Shown here: positions 11,882 to 35,370 of the stretch, piece by piece
Layout: every line of letters begins with the position of its first letter
How positions within the stretch are numbered: position 1 is the first letter of the stretch
From: a bacterium
GTDB lineage: Bacteria > Patescibacteriota > Minisyncoccia > Phycocordibacterales > UBA12079
Assembly: GCA_018401295.1 (NCBI GenBank)
Contig: JAGYLJ010000008.1
Location: forward strand, 1-35,370
Direction of reading: 5' to 3'
Length of the DNA: 35,370 nt
Notes under the pieces: generated by a model
Database searches by the model: none
What the model saw: only the letters and a program-made list of their open reading frames with translations
Told to the model about the DNA's origin: nothing
Position numbers and translations under genes: made by a program

Positions 11882-12436
11882 TTAAAAAGTTTTAAAACTT
11901 TCAAATATTTTTGTTAAATCTTTCAGTGCTAATGATCCTTCATTGGAAGAGTCGTTGACTATCACATTACTTAAGAATATATATTTATCACTTCTTCCAA
12001 TCTCATTATTACATTTACGACCTACCGCGTTCAGGTTCTCTTGTTCTTTTTCACAAAGAGTTATTTTTTCTTGTAATTTATCACTTTTCTCTATACTAAT
12101 TCCAGAAATTTTAAATAAACATTCATATCCTGGTATTTTAGTTATCATTGAACTATCAGATGACAAAGGAAGACAAAAATCAATTCCAAAAACGTCGTCT
12201 TCTCCACTTAAACTTTTATAAATATGGGGAAGTGTTTTATAGTTTAACCACGCATTTGTTAAAGCTAATTGGAAATCATATTCTTCATTAATATATGTTA
12301 TCCCTTCAGAAATTTCTTCTATATTGTTATCAATGGCTTCTTTTTGATTTTCTGTATAATAATAACTAACAACCACAAGAACAATAATTCCCACAATTAT
12401 TAAAACACCCCCCAACCCAAATCCTTTTTTCATCAT
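11882..12436 (-). CDS. Type IV pilin-like protein A
   Basis: About 184 residues. The N-terminus MMKKGFGLGGVLIIVGIIVL has the form of a short prepilin leader: basic residues, Gly, then Phe, then a hydrophobic helix, with likely cleavage between Gly and Phe. The consensus Glu at mature position 5 is absent. The soluble part (about 38-184) contains four Cys and has no relative I recognise. Its first 30 codons are almost the same in DNA as those of the gene at 13613, while the remainder is unrelated. It may be a minor pilin or pseudopilin exported by a type IV pilus-like system; no pilus motor genes lie in the window. Confidence 0.65.
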   Translation of the reverse strand: MMKKGFGLGGVLIIVGIIVLVVVSYYYTENQKEAIDNNIEEISEGITYINEEYDFQLALTNAWLNYKTLPHIYKSLSGEDDVFGIDFCLPLSSDSSMITKIPGYECLFKISGISIEKSDKLQEKITLCEKEQENLNAVGRKCNNEIGRSDKYIFLSNVIVNDSSNEGSLALKDLTKIFESFKTF

Positions 12437-12576: not shown

Positions 12577-12900
12577 TTAACCAAGTTTAACTGCTGTGCC
12601 AAAAGCTAACATTTCAGAAGCTCCCTGCATTATCATGGAAGTTGTAAATCTCATATTAACAATCGCATCAGCTCCTAAATCAATGGCTTCATTAACCATT
12701 CTATTATAGGCTTCATCTCGAGCGCTTGTTGTCATATCAGTATAGGTTTTAACTTCTCCACCTACAATACTTTTTAATCCAGCTCCAATATCTCTCCCGA
12801 TGTTCCTTGCTCTCACTGTATTACCCTTAGCAACTCCAAGTATTTCTATAATCTTCTTTCCAGGGATTTCACCTCCTGTAGTAACAATTATATTTGTCAT
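12577..12900 (-). CDS. YbjQ/UPF0145 family protein
   Basis: 107 residues, full length for the YbjQ (DUF74) family, often called a putative heavy-metal-binding domain. Diagnostic stretches are TTGGEIPGKKI, GVAKGNTVRARNIGRDIGAGLKSIVGGE, Y(T)DMTTSARDEAYNRMV and GADAIVNMRFTTS. The protein likely forms a pentamer in the cytoplasm; its biochemical role is not settled. It is preceded by a structured leader (12901-12990) that also occurs twice before pspC (29829), so the two genes are probably co-regulated. Confidence 0.93.
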   Translation of the reverse strand: MTNIIVTTGGEIPGKKIIEILGVAKGNTVRARNIGRDIGAGLKSIVGGEVKTYTDMTTSARDEAYNRMVNEAIDLGADAIVNMRFTTSMIMQGASEMLAFGTAVKLG

Positions 12901-12990
12901 AATTTCAAGTGAGGATTAGTAAAAATGATTATGTTAATGATTATTTTTACTATATCCGAATGATGGAATTATATGCTTTGCATATAATAT
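12901..12990 (-). promoter_or_regulatory. Structured leader, copy A (before ybjQ)
   Basis: On the minus strand: a palindrome around a TATAAT box (minus strand at 12968-12973), then CCATCATTCGGAT, a 14-bp stem with one bulged A (left arm 12943-12957, right arm 12913-12926), a 16-nt loop ending ATTAACATAATC, and 12 nt to the ATG. Against the copy directly before pspC, 54 of 67 positions from the -10 end to the ATG agree. Three stem pairs differ by compensatory changes. It could act as an RNA leader or as a DNA operator. Confidence 0.75.
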
Positions 12991-13016: not shown

Positions 13017-13613
13017 TTAAAATATAGGTCCAGACTCCACAGTTTCTATTAATGTATCTCCTTCCATCTTATAAGAATGAAGTACCCCTCCTGGATTCAT
13101 TTTATCTCTTCTTGTTCCTAAACATTCACCAGGTTTAGTAGTCTGACAAGAATATGTTGCTGTAAAAAATTCTTCACCCCCGAATTGATTTTTATCGCCA
13201 GTTAAGTTCTTTTCTATTAAGGCGCATTTGTTTGATGTAATTGCACTTTCTAAATCACAAACGCTAGATAAACAATCACTTTCAGAAGCACACTCTTTCC
13301 CGACATCTGGAGCTTTTTGAAAACAACCTTTTAAGGTGGTAAATGCTGGATGCAAGTCACTTAATCTAACTAAACCATTTTTCTTTAAACATTCACTCTC
13401 AAAATCACTAGTACAACATTCTTTATTATTCCATGTTTCTCCTTCTATACAGTCTACACATTCCATTAAAGGTTCTGTATAATTTTTTCGACCTTCTACA
13501 ATATCATGCTCACCACCAATTTTTTGATTTTCCGTATAGTAATAACCAACGCCCGCAAGAACAATAATACCTACAACTATTAAAACACCCCCTAACCCAA
13601 ATCCTTTTTTCAT
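13017..13613 (-). CDS. Type IV pilin-like protein B, Cys-rich
   Basis: 198 residues with the prepilin-type start MKKGFGLGGVLIVVGIIVLAG, nearly identical in DNA and protein to the gene at 12436, then a different outward domain rich in cysteine (CVDC, ECC, CLSSVCD, SCQTTKPGECLG). The C-terminal half (about 105-198) with GKECASESDCLSSVCD looks like a small disulfide-knit module common in secreted bacterial proteins. It is likely a surface protein. Shared leaders with unlike bodies suggest domain exchange after duplication. Confidence 0.65.
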   Translation of the reverse strand: MKKGFGLGGVLIVVGIIVLAGVGYYYTENQKIGGEHDIVEGRKNYTEPLMECVDCIEGETWNNKECCTSDFESECLKKNGLVRLSDLHPAFTTLKGCFQKAPDVGKECASESDCLSSVCDLESAITSNKCALIEKNLTGDKNQFGGEEFFTATYSCQTTKPGECLGTRRDKMNPGGVLHSYKMEGDTLIETVESGPIF

Positions 13614-21925: not shown

Positions 21926-23530
21926 TTATTTATTTTCCAAGACTTCAATACGGGCTTTTAATTCTGCAATTTCGGTATCTTTCTCTAATTTTATAGCATC
22001 AATTTGCCTCTGTTGTTCTTGAATAGCTTTAATAGTAAGTGGGATAAGCTCAGTATAACGAATGCCTAGATAGCCATCTTGGTCAGTTCCCACTACTTCT
22101 GGAAAAACTGTTTGAACATCTTGTGCTATCAAACCAACCCGACGAATATCGTCATCTTCAGTTTTAAATTTATAATAAACTGGACGTAAAAACGCCAATT
22201 TCTCATTAGCATTTTCAATATTACCTAAGATATCTTTTAAACGTAAATCAGAAGACGTTGACCAAGTATTTTGACCAGATGTAAGATAAATACCAGTCCC
22301 AGCTGTGTTTCTAAAATAAACAACATTTCCTGCATTGGCTATTATTTCTAACTTAGCATTTGGTGAAGCTGTACCGATTCCTACATTACCTGTAGGGAAA
22401 ACAACTTTCGTAACTGTATAGCCAGAACGTCCAATATGGAAAGCCATGTTTCCTAATGACCCAGCATCATTTATGGATTGAATGTCAAAACTGCCTGCTT
22501 CGAGACCAGACGTTCTAATTCTCCATAAACGATTATCAACAGCTTCCGAATCATTTTTATAATCTAGATATGCACCAGTACCTGTCACTCTAGCAGAACC
22601 ATAAACATCAAGTTTATAAACTGGCGCCGTCGTCCCGATGCCGACGTTGCCGCCTGAAGATACTCTCATTCTCTCTGATGCAGTTGAACCATCATATGTA
22701 AATACCTTAAAGCCATCTCCGCCACCAACCACTATAGCTCCCTTATTTTGATATGCTAAATAAGCGGTAGCGGCACCATAAGCATCAGAAACTGCATCAG
22801 TCCTACTAAGAATTTGACCAACGTAAGTAGCACCTGTAAATGTACCATCTGCATAAGATATCTCTTGTTTAGCCCTTGGCCCCGTCGTCCCGATTCCGGC
22901 GTTGCCTGTACTTGTTATACGCATCCTTTCCCCATAAGCACCGGAAGTATATGTCCAAAATTCTATTGGTTTATCTGCTCCTGCTGATGCAATAACAGCA
23001 CCTGAAGAGTCATACCCAAGATGTAATCCGAGAGACGTTCCGTCCCAGAAAAGGGCGGTCGAGGTGCCAGTCCCCAAACTTGTACCTGTCGTTTGAACTA
23101 CGAATTTATACGATGGCCCCGTCGTCCCGATGCCGACGTTGCCGTCATATTGGACACGTAACCTTTCACCCCAAGATGACCCGTTGTGAGTTACGAATGT
23201 CAAGCCACTTGACGCTCCTACACTTCCTATGGTTCCTAAATTTGCCGATGTGTCATATCCAAGCCACAAACCCTCTGACTGATCTCCGTCACGGAAAAAG
23301 GTGTTGTAGTAAATTGTCCCCGTTAAATTTGTGCCTACACCCTTGACATCTAATGGAGTTGCAGGCGCCGTCGTCCCGATACCGACTAATCCGCTTTCTA
23401 ATACCGTTACCTTTTCTGCTCCAGTGCTATCTTGCAAGTTCAAAATGTCGGCACCTAAACCTTGAACGGATAATCTTGCTAATGGCCCCGTCGTCCCCAC
23501 CCCCACATTCCCACTTGTATCAATAGTCAT
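21926..23530 (-). CDS. S74-type surface repeat protein (main part of a frameshifted gene)
   Basis: 534 residues in this frame, a beta-helical or fibre-like protein. Repeats containing GNVGIGTTGP-type motifs occur about every 50-90 residues, with 'GERMRI' and 'LGYDSS'-type segments between. The C-terminus is an S74 intramolecular chaperone domain: SSDLRLKDILGNIENANEKL, FLRPVYYKF, RRVGLIAQDVQTVFPEVV, then a coiled coil (TIKAIQEQQRQIDAIKLEKD...). In phage tail spikes this domain drives trimerisation and cuts itself off; here it is likely a cell surface fibre. The true N-terminus lies upstream at 24002, joined through two frame changes near 23670-23720. The repeat motifs are coded by GC-rich near-identical DNA. 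Confidence 0.88.
   Translation of the reverse strand: MTIDTSGNVGVGTTGPLARLSVQGLGADILNLQDSTGAEKVTVLESGLVGIGTTAPATPLDVKGVGTNLTGTIYYNTFFRDGDQSEGLWLGYDTSANLGTIGSVGASSGLTFVTHNGSSWGERLRVQYDGNVGIGTTGPSYKFVVQTTGTSLGTGTSTALFWDGTSLGLHLGYDSSGAVIASAGADKPIEFWTYTSGAYGERMRITSTGNAGIGTTGPRAKQEISYADGTFTGATYVGQILSRTDAVSDAYGAATAYLAYQNKGAIVVGGGDGFKVFTYDGSTASERMRVSSGGNVGIGTTAPVYKLDVYGSARVTGTGAYLDYKNDSEAVDNRLWRIRTSGLEAGSFDIQSINDAGSLGNMAFHIGRSGYTVTKVVFPTGNVGIGTASPNAKLEIIANAGNVVYFRNTAGTGIYLTSGQNTWSTSSDLRLKDILGNIENANEKLAFLRPVYYKFKTEDDDIRRVGLIAQDVQTVFPEVVGTDQDGYLGIRYTELIPLTIKAIQEQQRQIDAIKLEKDTEIAELKARIEVLENK
22626..22651 (-). repeat. GC-rich module repeated in and between the two surface genes
   Basis: On the minus strand the module reads GGCAACGTCGGCATCGGGAC followed by GACGGC and encodes GNVGIGTT. 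Near-exact copies lie at about 22881-22906, 23119-23143, 23364-23385 (left part) and, in the second gene, at 34264-34292 and 34510-34538. The flanking coding DNA is AT-rich and divergent. Confidence 0.75.
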
Positions 23531-29612: not shown

Positions 29613-29654
29613 TGGAATTATAAATGCTAAATTATAAATTAAATTAAAAATTAT

Positions 29655-29741
29655 ATATGAAGCAAGCATATAATTCCATCGTTCGGATTATACAAAAATA
29701 AGTATTAACATAATCATTTTTGTAAATCCTCACTCGAAATT
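29655..29741 (+). promoter_or_regulatory. Structured leader, copy B (tandem)
   Basis: First of two tandem 87-nt units before pspC. It is identical to copy C over the shared core apart from one base (TTCC against TTTC after TATAAT). It has the same stem-loop and ends CTCACTCGAAATT, but is followed by ATATGAAG of copy C, not by a gene start. Confidence 0.75.
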
Positions 29742-29828
29742 ATATGAAGCAAGCATATAATTTCATCGTTCGGATTATACAAAAATAAGTATTAACATAA
29801 TCATTTTTGTAAATCCTCACTCGAAATT
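29742..29828 (+). promoter_or_regulatory. Structured leader, copy C (directly before pspC)
   Basis: A TATAAT box (29756-29761) precedes a stem with left arm 29772-29786 and right arm 29803-29816: 14 bp with one bulged A at the same place as in copy A. The 16-nt loop ends ATTAACATAATC. Then 12 nt lead to the pspC ATG at 29829. No SD is seen. The flanking TTC...GAA may extend the stem. Confidence 0.75.
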
Positions 29829-30017
29829 ATGAAAAAAATATACTTATCAAAAGAAAATAAAAAAATTGCTGGAATTTGTGGAGGAATAGGAGAGTTCTTT
29901 GGTGTTGATCCTGTTCTTATTAGAGTCGCTACTATTCTTTTAGCCATCTTTACTGCTATCTTTCCAGCCGTTCTAGCTTATATAATTCTTTGGTTGGTAA
30001 TCCCTGCTAAAAAATAA
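29829..30017 (+). CDS. pspC: PspC-domain protein
   Basis: 62 residues, a bare PspC domain: MKKIYLSKENKKIAGICGGIGEFFGVDPVLIRVATILLAIF, then one span (about 36-58, ILLAIFTAIFPAVLAYIILWLVI) and the end PAKK. In enterobacteria PspC is the membrane sensor of the phage-shock (envelope stress) system; the single-domain form is widespread and its role less clear. It has a tandem structured leader shared with ybjQ (12900), which implies common control. No pspA or pspB is in view. Confidence 0.93.
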   Translation: MKKIYLSKENKKIAGICGGIGEFFGVDPVLIRVATILLAIFTAIFPAVLAYIILWLVIPAKK

Positions 30018-33806: not shown

Positions 33807-35370
33807 TTATATATCTGTAACACTTACTAAAGTTGGGTTTGAAAAACTATATCCATTTGAATAAAATGTAAAAGTAGCTCCAAAGTTAGTAAAATCCGAA
33901 GAACCATGAGTATTGTTAAGAGTCATTTTATATTGGGAACCAGATCCTACAGCAGTCCACCCTATGGTTAAATTAGATGGAGCAAACCCAAGAGCATAGA
34001 CATCAGATTGGGCAACAGAATACATACCGTCACTCCAAGGTGAAAATTGCACCGCAATTTTTTTGGAAGTAACCCCAGAGGAAGCGCCACCAAAAGAACC
34101 TGTGATTATCAATTCTAACACCAATCTTCCGCCGTTTGGGAGCCCTGTAAAAATATATTCTCTTGAATGACCATAGGCTAAAGATCCATTCGCAGTACTT
34201 GTAAAAGTCCACACTTTTTTATTATTAGACAACATACCTCCAGTAATCTCTAATTTTTCTTGTGGCGCCGCCGTCCCGATGCCGACGTTGCCGCTAGTTG
34301 GGTCAACTGCCATCCATGTTCTAGCACTTCCAGTTTCTGTTCCCTCTCCAGTTCTAAAATATACCGTACCACCTGAATATGTTTTAAAATCAGCGTATAG
34401 ATTCCCATCAGAATAAGGAATCAATCCAAAACCTCTCATTGTATTATCTGCTGTTTCAGGATTATCTCCAAAATAAGAATATCCTCCAGAAACGTGCAAC
34501 TTCGCCCCCGGACCCGTCGTTCCAATGCCGACGTTGCCGCCATCTGGATTAAGTAAAAGTGTATATTGACCTGTTACACCATTATTGCGACTTTGAAGCC
34601 AAGAACCTCCTGAACCAGAATTAAAAACACCAACATTAAGAACAACATTAGTAGAATCACTACCTACCAATAATCCACCATTTGGGGACCCACTAGAACC
34701 TGACGTCGGTAAAGCATTAGTTCCCATAACATGTAACTTTGTTGCTGGCCCTATTGTTCCAATTCCAACATTGCCGGTTGATGTAATTTTAAATAAAGCA
34801 TTAGGGTTGTCAGCAACACCAGTATCATGAGTGGCAACATCGGTTTTTCTGGCGATAATTAGACTATCTGAATCATTATATGGAGAACCAATAAACCATT
34901 CTTTTTGACCAACCTGTTGATACAAATACAGACCTCCCCCCCGAATATCAGCAGAATCGTCACCAGATTGTAAGACAATCCCAGCATTAATGTAATCGTT
35001 GCCAGTTCCAAGAATCCTTAACTGTGTAGTCCCCGTAGCTCCTGTCATGGCCCCTGTGCCTTGAATATCCAATTTTACCCCTGGCGTCGTTGTACCAATG
35101 CCAATATTGCTTCCATTTATCACCATTCTAGCGCCTGAACTTCCCCCTTCACGTGCTTCAAAATACATCATTCCGCTTTCACTCCCATTAGTACTACTTA
35201 CAATTGTATTAGATATGGCTGTATAATTTTGGTCATTAGAATCAGAATCTAATGCATTAAAACTAATTTTTGCGAATTCTTGTCCTTCTACATTGTCATT
35301 ATTAGAGAATGCAAATTGACCTCTATTTAAGGTAGGCTCATGAACTCTCATCCTATATGACTCCGTGCTA
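33807..35370 (-). CDS. Surface repeat protein with GNVGIGTT modules, 5' end outside window
   Basis: The frame is open through the window edge (codons before the ATG at 35351 read STESYRMRV), so the N-terminus is missing; about 520 residues are visible. GNVGIGTT/NIGIGTTTP motifs recur, as in the S74 gene at 21926, with AT-rich divergent segments between. The C-terminal 140 residues (from KVWTFTSTANGSLAYGHSREYIF to FSNPTLVSVTDI) are a different beta-rich domain, not S74. Some modules share GC-rich DNA with the other gene. Likely a secreted fibre or surface protein. Confidence 0.85.
   Translation of the reverse strand, partial: STESYRMRVHEPTLNRGQFAFSNNDNVEGQEFAKISFNALDSDSNDQNYTAISNTIVSSTNGSESGMMYFEAREGGSSGARMVINGSNIGIGTTTPGVKLDIQGTGAMTGATGTTQLRILGTGNDYINAGIVLQSGDDSADIRGGGLYLYQQVGQKEWFIGSPYNDSDSLIIARKTDVATHDTGVADNPNALFKITSTGNVGIGTIGPATKLHVMGTNALPTSGSSGSPNGGLLVGSDSTNVVLNVGVFNSGSGGSWLQSRNNGVTGQYTLLLNPDGGNVGIGTTGPGAKLHVSGGYSYFGDNPETADNTMRGFGLIPYSDGNLYADFKTYSGGTVYFRTGEGTETGSARTWMAVDPTSGNVGIGTAAPQEKLEITGGMLSNNKKVWTFTSTANGSLAYGHSREYIFTGLPNGGRLVLELIITGSFGGASSGVTSKKIAVQFSPWSDGMYSVAQSDVYALGFAPSNLTIGWTAVGSGSQYKMTLNNTHGSSDFTNFGATFTFYSNGYSFSNPTLVSVTDI

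Follow-up and report, generated by a model that had tools for sequence, protein, structure and literature searches.

Hairpin-forming repeats of Paceibacteria as a probable family of non-autonomous mobile DNA elements, with a branch that docks at start codons

Related systems and the copies in the window

Folded integron attC sites are characterized by unpaired regions and extrahelical bases (PMC2727003). The repeat described here resembles them in forming a single-strand hairpin whose outer box extends into the flanking DNA where exchange occurs, in having an unpaired spacer on both strands, an inner box with an extrahelical base (in the home family) and a variable terminal loop, and in keeping its structure more than its sequence. 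It differs in the outer box itself: attC sites carry GTTRRRY / RYYYAAC with exchange after the first G, whereas here R' takes the form N5|TAT, in which N5 is free and the boundary follows it. It also differs in that the sequence of its unpaired spacer is conserved, and in that it is accompanied by neither an integron integrase nor gene arrays between copies, a single tRNA-carrying case apart. REP/BIME repeats with their RAYT (TnpAREP) proteins are likewise short structured intergenic repeats with a bulged stem, often in tandem and several per genome; the element, unlike these, lacks the GTAG/CGTC tag at the hairpin foot, has an outer box (the R box) that pairs with the target, docks at start codons, and has many carriers from which the mobilizer gene is absent. 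With the ends of IS200/IS605 and their derived palindromic elements it shares guide-like pairing between element and putative cleavage site and oriented insertion by a short target, with no duplication. Unlike them, it contains no transposase gene and only a single inner hairpin, and its ends match no Y1 element found here (the surroundings of the IS200-like genes that were found differ in sequence from the hairpin element). BOX, ERIC and Correia are small structured mobile repeats too, with a mobilizer that is unknown or borrowed and a capacity to affect the expression of neighboring genes, which is a likeness of kind only (PMC3049150). Tandem modules are a further feature shared with BOX, but the class-wide spread in Paceibacteria and the exact start-codon junction set the element apart from all three. 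To our knowledge, BOX, ERIC and Correia have no sequence relation to the hairpin element.

The window, by which we mean the whole 35,370-nt stretch of DNA that was analyzed, contains three copies, two in tandem upstream of a pspC-like gene and one upstream of a ybjQ-like gene (Table 1). A sequence-only reading had described three copies of about 87 nt ending at start codons. The copies and their junctions are real, the last copy at each locus being followed by TATG with the ATG of pspC (29829) or ybjQ (12900), but three is an undercount: 13 copies, 8 of them adjoining an ATG, are spread over 9 loci of the genome of origin (619 kb in 27 contigs). The unit is laid out as TATATG-N7-CATATAATTYC-ATCGTTC-GGATT(a)TA..AAAAT-loop-ATTTTT..TAAATCC-TCACTC-GAAAT|TAT. 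Within the R box of copy B, the final TAT (29828-29830) is target DNA and part of the start codon context. The 14-bp stem with a bulged A, as originally described, does fold, but the bulge follows five pairs in copies A and B and four in copy C, one pair lower; copy C also has a left loop of only 3 nt. Likewise, the hairpin is present but belongs to a larger structure, which adds an outer stem (CATATAATTTC/GAAATTAT(ATG)) and a left hairpin (HP-A, TATATG/CATATA). The −10-like TATAAT box that had been noted is also found in the element.

Elsewhere in the window, two neighboring minus-strand ORFs (11882-12436 and 13017-13613), with ybjQ and its element between them, have a common N-terminus, MKKGFGLGGVLI(I/V)VGIIVL, and two long proteins (21926-23530 and 33807-35351, minus strand) with repeated GNVGIGTT motifs are of adhesin or tail-fiber type by appearance.

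Table 1. Positions of the element copies, their parts and the adjoining genes in the window.
Feature	Positions	Strand	Description
Element copy A	29654-29740	+	87 nt, first copy of the tandem; begins with TATATG, ends with ...TCACTCGAAAT; boundaries from empty site
Element copy B	29741-29827	+	87 nt, then target TATG (pspC start codon)
Element copy C	12902-12986	-	85 nt, then TATG (ybjQ start codon)
pspC-like gene	29829-30017	+	PF04024, E 2.9e-22
ybjQ-like gene	12577-12900	-	PF01906, E 4.7e-36
Left hairpin (HP-A), copy B	29741-29759	+	TATATG (29741-29746) / CATATA (29754-29759), 7-nt loop
Outer stem (R box), copy B	29757-29830	+	ATAATTTC 29757-29764 pairs with GAAATTAT 29823-29830
Inner bulged stem (L stem), copy B	29772-29816	+	29772-29786 with 29803-29816; bulged A 29777; loop 29787-29802
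Conserved 5' strand, copy B	29765-29773	+	ATCGTTCGG; consensus NNCRYTCGG, unpaired up to first G of GG
Conserved 3' strand, copy B	29815-29822	+	CCTCACTC; consensus CCTCRCTN, unpaired after CC
Sigma70-like candidate promoter at tandem junction	29734-29761	+	TCGAAA-16-TATAAT, 10/12 matches; putative function

Folded structure and covariation

Folded as single-stranded DNA, copy B has minimum free energies of −11.5 and −13.8 kcal/mol on the two strands (z = −3.3 and −4.8). Pairing in the inner stem reaches 96.7% over 52 copies, and both sides have changed in 9 of its 14 pairs. The structure as a whole contains 72 cells changed on both sides, where shuffled sets give 21 and slid controls no more than 17; HP-A is paired in 95% of cells. 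The pair-preserving changes first noticed between copies in the window are thus a property of the larger set, and the proposed search for further copies and for covariation in a larger alignment bore out the structure, but not the association with pspC and ybjQ. Covariation of the R box was examined in 34 cores from many families, in which 93.8% of its cells are paired (at most 48% in slid controls), seven of its eight pairs show both-side changes and all four Watson-Crick types are found at its variable positions. These cores share an invariant C, TCGG, CCT and another two T. Between families, the outer stem is fully replaced with compensation, the flanking target TAT included, while C.RYTCGG-stem-CCTCRCT is kept. 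The left hairpin is compensated in other families (for example TATCCTTCCGT/ACGGAAGGATA in L206), and the form of the bulge varies, with none present in L206; the conserved property of the element is its pairing, not its sequence. The loop sequence TTATGTTAAT might be taken for a dif-like site, but the loop differs from copy to copy, which led us to abandon this reading.

The last three R box pairs are made with the flanking TAT, that is, with target DNA, and the guide strand of the element tracks its target. In L218 (genome G143) and L249 the flank is GTA instead of TAT, and the guide reads TAC in the first L218 copy and in L249, and TGC in the second L218 copy. The guide ATA is complementary to TAT on both flanks; as the left hairpin and the R box both use the ATA strand, this strand can pair with either end, namely the left TATA of the element or the adjoining target TAT. 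G-U pairs account for about 1% of cells both in the 52 copies and in the 34 cores. RNA helices usually contain many more G-U pairs and, because such pairs are nearly absent here, the covariation pattern suggests that the folded molecule under selection is DNA.

Spread and insertion sites

All ten relatives in the family carry the element, nine being detected by DNA search and the tenth, G005, through one copy added by covariance model R1. Iterated profile searching of the fetched loci gave 81 copies or fragments at 64 insertion loci, many of them as tandems with two or three members; several lie at the end of a contig. Model R1 has matches in 54 of 297 genomes of the order, and the core model R2 in 105 of 384 genomes of the class Paceibacteria (92 of 294 genera, with up to at least 12 matches per genome); in the phylum sample, R2 matched only four genomes outside the class. 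A structural pattern search of 242 kb of loci returned 29 matches in the real sequences and none in shuffled versions. The original remark that the element was not known to its reader as a named motif agrees with an Rfam search of the region, whose best match (E 0.85) was far below threshold; no Rfam family exceeded its gathering threshold, with only whalefall-1 matching, at 14.3 bits against 37. The titles and abstracts listed by searches of the open-licence literature on integrons or palindromic repeats in Patescibacteria/Parcubacteria do not describe the element family. An exact-pattern scan of viral contigs gave no match and so, for the pattern used, revealed no phage carrier. The family is new and previously unnamed, widespread and structured, with a start-codon-docking branch in the home family.

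Insertion is seen most directly at one locus, where a clean empty site with close flanks was available. The filled site in G006 (L044) and the empty site in G004 (L070) share 85-89% identity in their flanks. The sequence of the empty site is AAATAAT|TATCAA; the insert, TATATG...CGAAAT, is exactly 87 nt, equal to the tandem period. The insertion point is N|TAT, with no duplication beyond TAT. The remaining empty sites are from more distant relatives, and concern rnhA, smpB, rpsQ, rsmI, a 205-aa gene and others. Within the ribosomal operon of G008, single copies stand between the stop codon of the preceding gene and the ATG of rpsQ, and likewise of rplF, for which the site is empty in G000, G004, G005, G006 and G007. 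The rplU site is filled in G003 and G004 and empty in G000 and G002, and the gene for a small putative periplasmic protein has a filled site in both G000 and G008; in view of these shared filled sites, some copies may be old or gained twice. G008 also has a near-identical pair of response-regulator genes (2 differences in ~190 nt; L040:53-512 and L046:7848-8125) with different element types in front, representing either strain variants or a duplication. At one orthologous gene start (L064:7008-7100 compared with L035:8008-8175), G002 has two copies in the orientation of the gene and G004 one in the opposite orientation.

At two loci, elements are inserted in the anticodon loop of tRNA-Ile(TAT). 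In G043 (L073:8490-8790), the insertion is at GAGG|TATAAG, and the arms of the left hairpin enclose an intact copy of tRNA-Ile, after which come two cores in tandem. In G003 (L079:6685-6850), a tRNA-Ile remnant contains a copy with the left hairpin TATATC/GATATA. The tRNA gene in G043 is the only cargo seen, and none of the loci read contained an autonomous version, in which HP-A would enclose a gene of the element. The behavior of the element is that of a mobile repeat, not of a regulon element, and an attC/REP-like, hairpin-forming, non-autonomous architecture is the best reading of it. We consider it probable that the family consists of small (~75-95 nt), non-autonomous, single-strand-folding mobile DNA elements, to be understood through the recombination and start-codon docking proposed below.

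Start codons are prominent among the insertion sites of the home family, in which TATG follows 33 copies, nearly all at true ORF starts, and TATA, TATT or TATC follows 20; in other families the flanks are TATA, with no start codons. Here, TATG accounts for 55% of ATG gene starts, A is dominant at −3, and an SD-like motif is present in only 10%. Campbellbacteria are listed as SD-scarce and without CCUCC (PMC10783764). The left flanks of insertions favor AAAT, resembling the GAAAT of the element itself and, together with the TATG starts, this means that the target resembles the start-codon context. Such resemblance does not account for the full number of start-codon insertions, which make up 22 of the 32 scored sites against 24% expected by a site-weight model from target sequence alone (p = 1.3e-7). 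The excess may reflect retention of copies, or could have another cause.

Candidate mobilizers and proposed mechanism

Neither a mobilizer nor an autonomous relative was found among the genomes and loci examined. Of 31 carriers, 8 lack serine recombinases and 19 lack reverse transcriptases, which rules both out as a common mobilizer. Tyrosine recombinases, present in 23 of 25 near-complete carriers, are the only candidate in nearly all of them, and the succession of R box, unpaired spacer, L stem with extrahelical base and variable loop is the plan of a folded attC site. The element may thus be attC-like, its folded single strand serving as the recombination site of a chromosomal XerC/D-like enzyme or of a lost integron integrase, a reading to which the L073 insertion also lends itself: its tRNA-Ile gene, between HP-A arms in the split anticodon loop, is cassette-like in an integrase-type target. 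However, the R box is not GTTRRRY/RYYYAAC, the exchange point lies five pairs from the spacer, gene-cassette arrays are absent and no integron integrase was seen. The recombinases read are mostly ordinary XerC/D-like proteins, mostly one per genome; they occur just as often where no copies were detected (13 of 15 genomes) and are missing in two carriers, the complete G005 and G551. We regard this explanation as doubtful, and Xer acting on the folded strand as the likeliest single mobilizer candidate, not more.

A REP-like element spread by a RAYT or IS200-type (Y1 HUH) transposase would also have a bulged hairpin, a short target without duplication, a guide that pairs with both ends, and tandems, and RAYT-like genes are present in 11 of 11 family genomes. 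Nevertheless, no Y1 gene is found in 9 of the 25 near-complete carriers, the RAYT genes inspected are flanked by different palindromes of their own and none by the hairpin element, the GTAG foot is absent, and each unit has one bulged hairpin. RAYT was rejected as the general mobilizer on account of the carriers without Y1 and of these other palindromes, and we judge spread by such a transposase to be unlikely. At L094, L096, L097, L160, L162 and L163, each RAYT-like gene is flanked by near-perfect, gene-specific palindromes of ~20 nt (e.g. TTGGTAATCGGATTACCAA); judged from sequence, these are apparent REPtrons in Paceibacteria.

The sequence-only reading had proposed an RNA structure or a symmetric operator that controls envelope-related genes together. 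Such a structured 5' leader RNA (riboswitch-like) or operator is favored by features that are genuine: exact placement at start codons, a −10-like box and pair-preserving changes. Joint control does not fit the genes concerned. Those behind the family copies are a functional mix (S17, L6, L21, HisRS, SmpB, TIM, deformylase, RNase H, CsoR-type, PilB-like), including ribosomal protein genes within the ribosomal operon as well as hisS, tpiA, def, smpB and rplU, and most of the orthologues examined in relatives have no copy. About 20 copies in the family have no start codon, there are copies without genes and copies in tRNA-Ile remnants, the core in other families is away from start codons, and G-U pairs are nearly absent. 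We therefore consider a leader or operator for a gene set very unlikely. An effect of individual copies on the gene downstream is a separate matter. TATAAT is part of the R box, and at a tandem junction it is preceded, with a spacing of 16 nt, by TCGAAA or, in many other copies, by TTGAAA; given this −35-like box and the TATAAT, some copies probably act as portable promoters or leaders, although a consensus promoter scan gave no more matches than in shuffles. In G000 (C22:37100-37903; L031:7101-7904), a copy adjoins a 71-aa ORF, and the gene immediately after this ORF encodes a large serine recombinase. A classical MITE of a DDE transposon, which the short, AT-rich, dispersed and non-coding character of the element might suggest, is the least credible alternative and can be set aside, as its two ends, TATATGAAGC / ATTTCGAGTG, do not form terminal inverted repeats and there is no duplication longer than TAT.

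At its boldest, our own proposal, which we put forward tentatively, is that Paceibacteria possess a single-strand recombination system not described before, integron-like but without an integron integrase, and that the element is its substrate; such a system would combine recognition of unpaired strands, target pairing by the outer stem, tRNA-type cargo and, in one family, a portable promoter or leader that docks at start codons. On the reading that we consider probable, the unit, consisting of HP-A followed by an R box that encloses the two unpaired strands (C.RYTCGG and CCTCRCT) and the inner bulged stem with its variable loop, would fold as a single strand, on which a recombinase or transposase would recognize the conserved unpaired strands. 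Strand exchange would take place at GAAAT|TAT, with targets chosen via the R box, and head-to-tail arrays would follow from the fact that the left end of every copy, TATATG, offers a further target. In the home family (Campbellbacteria-like Paceibacterota, with no reliance on Shine-Dalgarno sequences), the R box GAAAT|TATG would mimic the usual AAAT|TATG start context, and through this imitation insertions would land exactly at start codons and leave initiation unharmed. The TATAAT of the R box, with TTGAAA or TCGAAA at tandem junctions, would then supply a portable promoter and a hairpin 5' leader to the downstream gene, an effect that would favor retention of such copies.

Paceibacteria genomes are small and compact, and a hairpin element in about one quarter of those sampled represents a notable unannotated mobile family. 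It is also a rare natural case of covariation for what appears to be DNA, not RNA, pairing, target included, and it raises the directly testable question of which enzyme moves the element. Start-codon docking, in a lineage that initiates without Shine-Dalgarno sequences, would explain both harmless entry into ribosomal operons and the rewiring of promoters.
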